A stretch of 31,663 bases of DNA, taken from a virus. Shown one piece after another: positions 22,441 to 28,796 of the stretch; position 1 is the stretch's first letter, and each line of letters opens with the position of its first letter. The notes under the pieces are model-generated. The model did not search any database and was not told the DNA's origin. It worked only from the letters and a program-made list of their open reading frames with translations. The position numbers and the translations under genes are program-made. The stretch is from positions 1 to 31,663 of IMG/VR virus record IMGVR_UViG_3300037882_002606, one strand, 5' to 3'.

Positions 22441-22917
22441 CTATTTTAATTGTATTGTATCTACTGGTGCATCAGTGATATATACTTTGTTGTTTTTAAC
22501 AATGATGGTTGCGTTGCCGCATGCTAATATAACACTAACAATCCAGTCTATTTGTTCTTGTGTATATCGTGATATGTCTATACCTCCACTAGGTTCTACT
22601 CATAGATCCATGCCTATAATATGCCAATGATCACGGTCTACTATAGACCTCTCTGATACTCTATGTCTGACGCAAGTGTGTCACGTATCAGACATATATT
22701 TTAATTCAATTGGAGACAGTTTGTGGCCATCTTTTATCCACAATATGTCCTGCATAGATCATCTATTAGAATGTGGATATAGGTTTTTTGATCTATATGC
22801 GTTGCCGATTTCCTCTGTAACAAGATTGTTTTCTTTCATATAATTATAAGAGGTTTTATGCATTTTTTCTTCAATGTTTATTGATTTATACGATTTGTCG
22901 GCAAGAGGATCTCTCAT
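22441..22917 (-). CDS. Hypothetical early protein, 158 aa
   Basis: Starts MRDPLADKSYKSINIEEKMH and stops with TAG. It has a His/Arg-rich centre (SDTGHTCVRHRVSERSIVDR, then DHWHIIGMDLG) and a beta-like C-terminus (NATIIVKNNKVYITDAPVDT). The clustered histidines and the DHWH motif suggest metal binding, with a faint resemblance to M15-type peptidases, but the order of ligands does not match clearly. It begins 7 bases after the nucleotidyltransferase and is probably co-transcribed with it. Function unknown. Confidence 0.6.
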
Positions 22918-24979: not shown

Positions 24980-25312
24980 CTAAAAAATCTCATCTTCAAT
25001 AAAAATTTTGTTTTCATCTTTGTTTCATCAAGACGTTTTGTCTAACTTTCGACAATTAATTGATTGGTAGTGTTTTCATGTTTTTGAAGAAAAATTTGAT
25101 TTAAAATTTAAGTGTGCCGATACCATATCTCACAAACACAAACCATTTGCCATTTCGATCTTTTCTTTAAATAAATCAAACTGTATTGTGTTTGGGTATT
25201 GGCTTCAAGAAACCTCTTTTATAGCAATTGTTTTTTTTTCAAGTCAATTGCTGCCAATTGTTTCTGTTTGTCAAATATAAACAACCTCTCATTCAAAATC
25301 TGTACTAAACAT
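24980..25312 (-). CDS. DUF3127-like OB-fold protein (possible ssDNA-binding), copy A
   Basis: A 110-aa protein starting MFSTDFEGEVVYIGQTETIG. The pattern GEVVYIGQTETIG-x-NG-x-KK, then SQYPNTIQFDLFKEKIEMAN, then GDMVSAHLNFKSNFSSKTGK follows the DUF3127 family, small OB-fold proteins frequent near phage recombination genes and suspected to bind single-stranded DNA. The C-terminus is acidic (NKIFIEDEIF), as in SSB-type proteins. It is the first gene after promoter P3. A paralogue lies at 25680-25955. Confidence 0.7.
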
Positions 25313-25409
25313 TATTAAACAATAGTAAATAAAAAACGCTACATAGATATACTCCTGCGACCAACCTTTCGATTGAAGAATACACCTATGTAGTGTGGTG
25401 ATTGGTCGC
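25313..25409 (-). ncRNA. Structured leader L3 with an H-type pseudoknot
   Basis: Two perfect 8-base pairings interlock. Plus-strand CTACATAG (25339-25346) pairs with CTATGTAG (25386-25393), and GCGACCAA (25357-25364) pairs with TTGGTCGC (25402-25409). The order A-B-A'-B' defines an H-type pseudoknot. AGATAT/ATATCT (25345-25350 with 25419-25424) could extend it. It lies between P3 and the start of the DUF3127-like gene. Compact pseudoknots in 5' leaders often act as riboswitches, protein-binding sites or exonuclease blocks; ligand unknown. Confidence 0.65.
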
Positions 25410-25415
25410 ATTGAT

Positions 25416-25443
25416 AATATATCTATATTACAATAAATTGCAA
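25416..25443 (-). promoter_or_regulatory. Early promoter P3 (leftward)
   Basis: TTGCAA (25443-25438), 16 bases, TATATT (25421-25416). The -35 box is again within the palindrome ATTGCAAT, and an imperfect second copy (ATTGTAAT) lies in the spacer. Drives the DUF3127-like, coiled-coil, lysozyme and downstream genes. Confidence 0.75.
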
Positions 25444-25679: not shown

Positions 25680-25955
25680 TTAAATGTTTTGTGGATCGAT
25701 TTTTGATGATGTTATTGTAGTATAGTATTTTTGTGTTTTAGTATAACGCATTTTTTTAAAAACAAGTTGTACAGAAACAAGGTCTCAAACTCAATGGTTA
25801 CAAATAAGTTGCATTTTGTCTTCAAACAAATCAACACATATTGATTGTTTTTTTGTTTCGTTTTCTAAGACAAAAGATATTTTTTGCAATAGGTTTTCTT
25901 TATTTTCAATGGTTTCTATTGGTCAAATATAGGTAATTTTTCAATCATAATTCAT
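25680..25955 (-). CDS. DUF3127-like OB-fold protein, copy B
   Basis: A 91-aa protein (MNYDGKITYIGPIETIENKE). It parallels copy A: ITYIGPIETI versus VVYIGQTETI, ICVDLFEDKMQLIC versus IQFDLFKEKIEMAN, GDLVSVQLVF versus GDMVSAHLNF, and KTQKYYTTI versus KTGKHYQSI. The acidic C-terminal tail of copy A is missing. Two diverged copies in separate promoter units, one with ERF and Gp157, suggest specialised ssDNA-binding roles, perhaps a heteromer. Confidence 0.6.
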
Positions 25956-27800: not shown

Positions 27801-28047
27801 TATTTTTTAACAAAATAAAAGTATGTATATAGCTATGTAATATGAGTCATAATGTTCCTGTAGCTGCACATTTATAAACATTATCTATCGGTGTTATCTA
27901 CTCATAGGCGAATCGATTGTAGCGGTTGCAACCTGTCACTTCTCTATCTTTATTTTTCTCTAGTACGATACAGCTTTCACGGCTCCTAGATACGTTCCTA
28001 TTATATTACACGGCTATGTATACACCAAACCTATAACAGCTTGTGAG
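27801..28047 (-). other. Non-coding stretch with several palindromes
   Basis: No open frame of useful length exists on either strand with TGA as sense. It has local symmetry: GGTTGCAACC (10-base palindrome, near 27929), and GTGAGTTACTCAC near 28043. Tetra- to hexamer pairings are scattered. Possibilities are a structured RNA or the 3' region of a decaying gene. No tRNA fold was found. Confidence 0.35.
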
Positions 28048-28386
28048 TTACTCACGGTAGTATGATTTTATAGACTCAAAGTAATTTTTGTCAAATTCCC
28101 TTTATTTGTCATCTAATCTTTTTAGTTTTGTTATGATATTCTTATTTTAGTAGTCTCATTGTTTGTATCAAAATTTTACAAAGAATTGTTTTGCTGGCAA
28201 CCATACATGCCCGTAATTCGCTTTGTGGAAAGCAATTCTATTTCAGCAATATTTAAATTCTTTTTTACCATAATCTGCTAATATCCAAATTCTCTTTCAT
28301 TGGTTCATATTTCATGTGTTCCACCAAGCTATATCTCTGTCGAACTCCATTCGTTTTTCTTTAGTTCGTTTGTAATATAATTTCAT
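28048..28386 (-). pseudogene. Early gene interrupted by two in-frame TAA codons
   Basis: The intact N-terminal ORF, 28386-28147 (79 aa), starts MKLYYKRTKEKRMEFDRDIA and has five UGA-glycines, a Trp/Tyr-rich middle (HKANYGHVWLPAKQFFVKFG) and stops at TAA. The same frame continues as NKNIITKLKRLDDK, a second TAA (28104-28102), then REFDKNYFESIKSYYRE and a final TAA at 28050-28048. Protein-like continuation beyond two stops suggests an ancestral 112-aa gene. The 79-aa part may still be expressed. Readthrough is less likely because TAA ends most other genes here. No family was recognised. Confidence 0.45.
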
Positions 28387-28520
28387 ATTTTTTTATAAGA
28401 TAAGTATAATGCTCCAATAGATCTCCTATAGAGTTTGTTGTACTCCTAATTATAGTAGAGTAAGATTTTGTTATTATCAAAAAGACAATAAGAAAAACAC
28501 AAATCGCTACAAAGCAATTA

Positions 28521-28583
28521 CTATACTACAATAGGAATACAACGAACAACTAGATCTTTGGTTGTTTTTTCGATAAGTTTCAT
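28521..28583 (-). pseudogene. Short ORF/relic after leader L4
   Basis: MKLIEKTTKDLVVRCIPIVV, then TAG. A hydrophobic stretch continues in a neighbouring frame (SIVIAL, stop, RFVFFLLSFG), as if a small membrane protein had been disrupted. It is the first ATG after P4. The bases 28387-28520 hold no other clear gene. Confidence 0.3.
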
Positions 28584-28796
28584 GCTCATAATGAGTCTCC
28601 TACTTTCGTCCGTCCATAGCGTATCTACCAGCTAGCTATGAGTGCTTAACCTACACCGCTTTGGATCACCAATTTTTCTGTAAACAGAAAGCTCTATTAG
28701 TGTTATCAGGCGTTCAAATACATCAGAACCAGCAAAACTAGTAATGAAATATAACTGATAACACTAATAGAGCTATTGGTTATGATGTACTTGAAC
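28584..28796 (-). ncRNA. Long structured leader / candidate small RNA L4
   Basis: About 210 bases lie between P4 and the first ATG, with almost no coding content. From 5' to 3' it holds the perfect 20-base inverted repeat (28774-28690), a TTTCTG/CAGAAA hairpin (28690-28675), a CATAGC/GCTATG hairpin and a CTCATTATGAG dyad. The density of stems suggests a structured RNA that may act on its own. No known RNA family was recognised. Confidence 0.5.
28690..28774. repeat. Perfect 20-base inverted repeat with 45-base loop
   Basis: Bases 28690-28709 (AGCTCTATTAGTGTTATCAG) are the exact reverse complement of 28755-28774. A perfect 20-base stem is very unlikely by chance. It starts about 20 bases after the predicted P4 start site, so it would form at the 5' end of the transcript. 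Confidence 0.9.

Follow-up and report, generated by a model that had tools for sequence, protein, structure and literature searches.

Two long, interleaved RNA helices lie at the 5′ end of the predicted early transcript of a DUF3127 gene in a 31,663-base virus record, the whole of which was analyzed and is called the window here. Both helices, their interleaving, the bias of the fold toward the coding strand, its association with a promoter and its recurrence were all computed, and together the leader looks like a genuine but uncharacterized RNA control element and not a chance fold. We tentatively favor the hypothesis that it is a cis-acting leader that folds co-transcriptionally and sets read-through or initiation into the downstream gene, SSB1, which it may well be. 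The leaders of phage early genes, among them nut, put and the gp32 operator, have been a rich source of antitermination and translational-control mechanisms.

The interleaved helices of the SSB1 leader

The element sits in the gap of 140 nt that separates a 68-aa gene (25659-25453) from the 110-aa DUF3127 gene (25312-24980), both on the minus strand. A preliminary description of this DNA had reported two perfect 8-base pairings in interleaved order, and all four 8-mers are exact at the claimed positions:

25339-25346: 8-mer A, CTACATAG, exact
25357-25364: 8-mer B, GCGACCAA, exact
25386-25393: 8-mer A′, CTATGTAG, exact
25402-25409: 8-mer B′, TTGGTCGC, exact

By themselves the 8-mers are weak evidence, because shuffled sequences also yield such sites and a second exact 8+8 site in the window (22735-22796) falls within a coding gene. 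Shuffling predicts 0.165 exact GC-containing 8+8 bp interleaved stems per window, counted over spans of up to 80 nt, and 2 were found; 13.5% of shuffled windows hold exact 8+8 interleaving. The original observation was nevertheless an understatement: the 8-mers are the cores of longer interleaved helices in the minus-strand RNA, G-U pairs allowed, with 11 bp in S1 and 17-18 bp in S2. In the order of transcription, the features of this leader, which we call P4 after its promoter, are as follows:

25438-25443, minus strand: -35 box of promoter P4, TTGCAA, within the repeated context TCTATTGCAAT; the motif recurs in three other minus-strand places
25416-25421, minus strand: -10 box of P4, TATATT, with a 16-nt spacer; predicted +1 at ~25409, inferred from spacing
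25400-25410, minus strand: S1 5′ strand, UGCGACCAAUC, holding B′
25394-25399, minus strand: L1, ACCACA, 6 nt
25377-25393, minus strand: S2 5′ strand, CUACAUAGGUGUAUUCU, holding A′; extendable to 18 bp at 25376
25367-25376, minus strand: L2, UCAAUCGAAA, about 10 nt
25356-25366, minus strand: S1 3′ strand, GGUUGGUCGCA, holding B and pairing with UGCGACCAAUC
25339-25355, minus strand: S2 3′ strand, GGAGUAUAUCUAUGUAG, holding A and pairing with CUACAUAGGUGUAUUCU; it abuts the S1 3′ strand (L3 = 0)
25313-25338, minus strand: AU-rich unstructured tail, CGUUUUUUAUUUACUAUUGUUUAAUA, with U6 at 25336-25331 and a TTTATT initiation-region motif at -21
24980-25312, minus strand: SSB1, DUF3127 protein of 110 aa (TGA read as Gly), with a Pfam DUF3127 match, a PHROG SSB match and a predicted OB fold

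Within the 140-nt gap, the strongest pair of interleaved stems has a stacking sum of -46.1 kcal/mol, a value that 0 of 10,000 dinucleotide shuffles reached (mean -20.7, sd 2.6), and the S2 5′-strand segment has a specific complement in the 3′ arm (z -7.2, 0/5,000). S2 ends 2 nt ahead of the U6 tract and 5 nt ahead of the AU-rich initiation motif. The label of H-type pseudoknot given in the preliminary description captures the two interleaved helices, but a plain pseudoknot of two 8-bp stems is too simple for extended stems with an L3 of 0-2 nt. Its suggestion of a riboswitch found no evidence: a search of the window against Rfam 15 returned 0 matches at the gathering score and only chance-level matches at a low threshold. 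Two further candidates were rejected. The AGGAG that opens the S2 3′ strand lies ~40 nt from the SSB1 start codon, and a Shine-Dalgarno-like sequence is not evident before most of the genes listed, which argues against sequestration of a ribosome-binding site in the P4 leader. A ToxI-like type III antitoxin was ruled out on reading the sequence, which has neither tandem repeats nor a toxin downstream.

Early promoters and recurrence of the design

The position of the element directly behind a promoter, also part of the preliminary description, holds on one ground only. Generic sigma-70 matches in the region are no more frequent than chance (46 against 52.9 expected), and we accept the P4 promoter because its TTGCAA type recurs. 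The pattern TTGCAA-N16/17-TATAWW with TCTMT ahead of it is found in four minus-strand places, P1 (257), P2 (28831), P3 (27434) and P4 (25443); three long minus-strand gaps carry it as TTGCAA-N16/17-TATAT, and the left-end copy differs slightly, with TATAAA. S1 of the P4 leader begins at the +1 that spacing predicts.

The -35 regions of P1, P2, P3 and P4, all on the minus strand, also carry a TTGC-N6/7-TTGY direct repeat. The lambda CII site is TTGC-N6-TTGC, and the repeat resembles an activator site, which would make the four promoters a candidate early regulon. P1 (257) and P3 (27434) and the leaders behind them are homologous (AAGAGAGACACCA...GAATAGTCACTAAG; alignment score of the leaders 125 against a shuffle maximum of 55) and may be copies of a single early leader, an arrangement that recalls nut or put sites, which come in pairs.

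A scan of both strands of the whole window for two interleaved helices of -15 kcal/mol or better each yielded the P2 and P4 leaders only, the single plus-strand match being the P4 site itself, and 12 shuffled windows yielded none. The second element lies behind P2:

28831 (TTGCAA) and 28808-28803 (TATATT), minus strand: promoter P2; predicted +1 at ~28796, from spacing
28690-28796, minus strand: P2 leader, second interleaved element, 107 nt
28796-28783 with 28725-28712, minus strand: S1, 14 bp, with an L1 of 8
28774-28755 with 28709-28690, minus strand: S2, 20 bp, with an L3 of 2

The predicted P2 start coincides with the first base of this element, so both elements start where transcription from a TTGCAA-type promoter is predicted to begin. 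No U tract follows S2 of the P2 element, and the next ORF is ~300 nt away. The 471-nt noncoding gap behind P2 (28387-28857, minus strand) holds further structure besides the 14+20 bp element, including a second long hairpin at 28430-28570 with a folding z of -7.2; the gap looks like a noncoding RNA of ~400 nt, one without an Rfam match.

Similar elements occur in other phages. Among ~1.8 Mb of phage records scanned, overlaps included, from a limited, terminase-selected set, only four elements have a stacking sum of -46 or lower: P4, P2 and one each in the phages G039 and G033. The enrichment of this class is descriptive and not a formal test, because the thresholds were set after the first two members had been seen. 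The G039 element (L133, minus strand, 921-835; sum -66.3) lies inside an operon, between SSB-like and primase genes and 7 nt before an ATG, with no TTGCAA-type promoter in front. The G033 element (L132, plus strand, 2307-2406; sum -53.3) occupies a divergent gap, where it follows TTGCAAAGTTATTGTAAATG with an ATG 5 nt further on, and an extra 8-bp pairing, GAGAAAAC:GTTTTCTC, seen on reading the sequence, reduces its L3 to 2 nt. In both phages the ATG, 5-7 nt on, comes after a T run. In G039/L133 and G033/L132 the S2 3′ strand contains, immediately ahead of the ATG, the Shine-Dalgarno-like sequences AAGGAGG and AAGGGG, and these two members could possibly act by sequestering the ribosome-binding site.

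All four members share a geometry, with S1 of 11-20 bp, L1 of 5-8 nt, S2 of 17-22 bp and L3 of 0-2 nt (in G033 by the hand extension), and in 4/4 the sense strand folds more strongly than the antisense strand, by 11-28 kcal/mol. There is no sequence conservation between them, and the P2, G033 and G039 elements precede genes other than SSBs. Since G033 and G039 use the standard code, the design is not confined to one phage lineage. No such element stands at the equivalent position in a phage whose terminase is 62% identical to that of G033. In G014 (L102, 1260-1365, plus strand), a TGA-recoded relative, a weaker interleaved leader (-39.9, 0/200 shuffles) precedes the portal gene, and reading the sequence revealed a terminator-like hairpin and T6 directly before the portal ATG; this arrangement would be attenuator-like. 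Rfam searches of L059, L132 and L102 gave 0 matches.

It is possible, if rather doubtful, that these elements form an undescribed class of phage leader RNA, found in a virus of TGA-recoded hosts and in unrelated phages, in which long interleaved helices of the dimensions given above stand where early transcripts begin or immediately ahead of start codons and fold co-transcriptionally into a compact two-helix bundle acting on RNA polymerase or the ribosome. If true, the recurring interleaved-helix leader would be a compact, testable RNA device. A structural search rule of long interleaved stems with an L3 of 0-2 catches what searches by sequence or nested structure miss.

Folding of the leader and its possible modes of action

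The geometry of the P4 leader constrains how its helices can coexist. Because the S1 3′ strand abuts the S2 3′ strand, a coaxial stack of full S1 and full S2 is not feasible; by a rough geometric estimate, end-to-end stacking of the full helices needs ~79 Å, and the 6-nt L1 reaches ~42 Å. The conflict would be resolved if S2 were shortened to <=12 bp, if the helices were bent and lay side by side in a bundle, or if S1 and S2 formed alternately, all of which are possible. Nested folding from the +1 gives -27.1 for S2 alone and -20.1 for S1 alone, and the pseudoknot is estimated, from stacking sums plus a literature penalty, at about -21 to -24. S2 alone is thus predicted to be more stable than either S1 alone or the pseudoknot, and S1 alone is predicted to be able to form while S2 is still incomplete in the nascent RNA. 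The two helices share no bases, and by our estimate any mutual exclusion would be steric only.

Based on these predictions we propose the following sequence of events, in which the order of folding, the regulatory effect and any trigger are inferred. The ~72-nt 5′-terminal part of the SSB1 transcript would emerge from the early promoter P4, and S1, with its 11 bp, would close first and keep the 5′ half of S2 in a loop. The 3′ half of S2 would emerge next and pair back, producing the interleaved two-helix structure. In the alternative outcome, S1 would open and a single long S2 hairpin would stand ahead of U6 and the initiation motif. The balance between the two states would determine the amount of transcription or translation that reaches SSB1, a cis control of the attenuator type. 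In bacterial and phage operons, attenuator and terminator leaders likewise have alternative helices and a U run ahead of the gene; the difference is that S1 and S2 share no bases, so that exclusion here would be steric and not a competition for strands. As an intrinsic terminator, S2 has a 2-nt gap to U6, is AU-rich, contains a long inner loop or bulge and was not listed by a pattern scan, and it would be weak by Escherichia coli standards. A nested long hairpin, H1 (-34.9), was considered as a better structure and rejected, since its outer arm overlaps the -10 box and is not significant alone (157/2000); H1 could form in read-through RNA from upstream transcripts.

The preliminary description had drawn a parallel with T4 gene 32 and suggested autoregulation by a probable ssDNA-binding protein. 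Its reading of the downstream gene was correct: the SSB1 structure model, of modest confidence (pLDDT 68), matches the OB folds of PriB and SSB. In an operator of the gene 32 type, the DUF3127 protein would bind the folded leader and then its own AU-rich start region, repressing translation. The T4 operator combines a 5′ pseudoknot with an unstructured tail containing UUAAA/UAAA repeats (PMC535899). The likeness lies in the 5′ leader with interleaved pairing, the unstructured AU-rich start region that follows the folded element, as in T4 (PMC535899), and the OB-fold, SSB-type product. The tail CGUUUUUUAUUUACUAUUGUUUAAUA, however, contains no UUAAA/UAAA repeats and its AU-richness is general in this genome, the stems here are 11 and 17 bp within 72 nt compared with about 28 nt in T4, and any protein binding is hypothetical. 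Furthermore, none of 23 other phage DUF3127 genes (20 IMG/VR loci and 3 annotated phages, all distant) has a structured leader: in 22 of the 23 the distance to the preceding ORF is -11 to +17 nt, the remaining one has no detected ORF ahead of it, and the fold z upstream ranges from -2.5 to +2.0. Within the window, the second DUF3127 copy, with an upstream gap of 33 nt, has no comparable leader, and the long leader occurs only at 24980-25312. Because these 23 genes lack the leader and the other elements have non-SSB neighbors, an operator specific to DUF3127 is disfavored, and we consider gene 32-like control unlikely. The comparison is with distant genes, however, and T4-like phages themselves vary in whether the SSB gene has such a leader.

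Slightly less probable is a role in mRNA stability or processing, in which a helix at the very 5′ end would protect against 5′-end-dependent decay, or RNase III would cut the S2 duplex of 17-20 bp to give differential expression. The start of S1 at the predicted +1 and the length of S2 agree with such a role and hold for the P2 leader as well, but it leaves the interleaving and the abutting 3′ strands unexplained, and the G039 element lies within an operon, where no promoter of this kind precedes it.

The leader could also be imagined as a nascent RNA of the put kind, which would bind RNA polymerase and let it pass later terminators of the early region; we think this improbable. Antitermination by HK022 put acts through the zinc-binding domain of the RNA polymerase β′ subunit. 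The P4 leader, ~72 nt long and placed where an early transcript begins, and its one counterpart in the genome behind P2, a promoter of the same type, resemble putL and putR, promoter-proximal structured RNAs of ~70 nt at early transcript starts with more than one copy per genome. HK022 putL is ~70 nt and lies just downstream of PL, and put consists of two sequential stem-loops (PMC9378689), whereas the stems here are interleaved, the G033 and G039 members lie right at start codons, the members have no sequence conservation, and antitermination is hypothetical here.

STAXI RNA (RF01728) is another pseudoknot-type RNA, often found near SSB and other DNA-handling genes, consisting mainly of a pseudoknot repeated two or three times (PMC2864571). 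Its covariance model had no match at E <= 10 anywhere in the window. Gene 32, put and STAXI are functional or topological neighbors of the leader, but defining features of theirs were looked for here and not found.

A DNA-level element, such as an operator, a cruciform or part of an origin, is very unlikely: the nested hairpin's outer arm shares bases with the -10 box, DNA repeats occur at the promoter and the DNA folding z is -4.2, but that arm is not significant, the swapped order of the arms is unlike normal operator symmetry, and the better sense-strand folding of all four members arises through G-U pairs. Chance, or a non-functional relic of a rearrangement, could produce the exact 8-mers, as shuffling and the coding-gene site indicate, but it is scarcely credible for full stems that no shuffle matched and that recur in an identical place behind a second promoter of that type.

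Genome setting and relatives

In the window TGA is read as glycine, and long open frames appear under table 25 only; in-frame TGA is also present in other phages with a related terminase. Code 25 is used by Gracilibacteria and Absconditabacteria (PMC10746230), and the window belongs to a virus of TGA-recoded bacteria of this type. Gene control in code-25 bacteria has been little studied, and the leader would offer a first look at how such phages regulate their genes. Structural genes occupy the plus strand and early genes the minus strand. A further minus-strand gap of 346 nt (27801-28146) has a predicted fold of -62 kcal/mol, without a convincing ORF or Rfam match.

No close homologue for covariation was found in searches of IMG/VR, genome_contigs and INPHARED. 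Searches of IMG/VR with the SSB1 protein and the exact DNA, and of INPHARED at the DNA and protein levels, returned nothing usable for covariation; portal and capsid searches and genome_contigs gave no usable homologue, nor did a search for DUF3127 in 44 records reached via terminase and ERF relatives, in which the control recovered both of the window's own copies. L006/L007 have the ERF gene in common with the window and lack DUF3127. The second copy in the window (25680-25955, minus strand) is a tandem paralogue of SSB1, 35% identical, with the 68-aa ORF between them.

A TTTATT initiation-region motif lies within 35 nt upstream of 17/31 genes, compared with 2/149 internal ATGs. Across the whole window, the packed structural operon included, Shine-Dalgarno sequences are not evident and TTTATT/TATTTA stands mostly at -19 to -25, possibly as an alternative initiation signal of the phage or its host.
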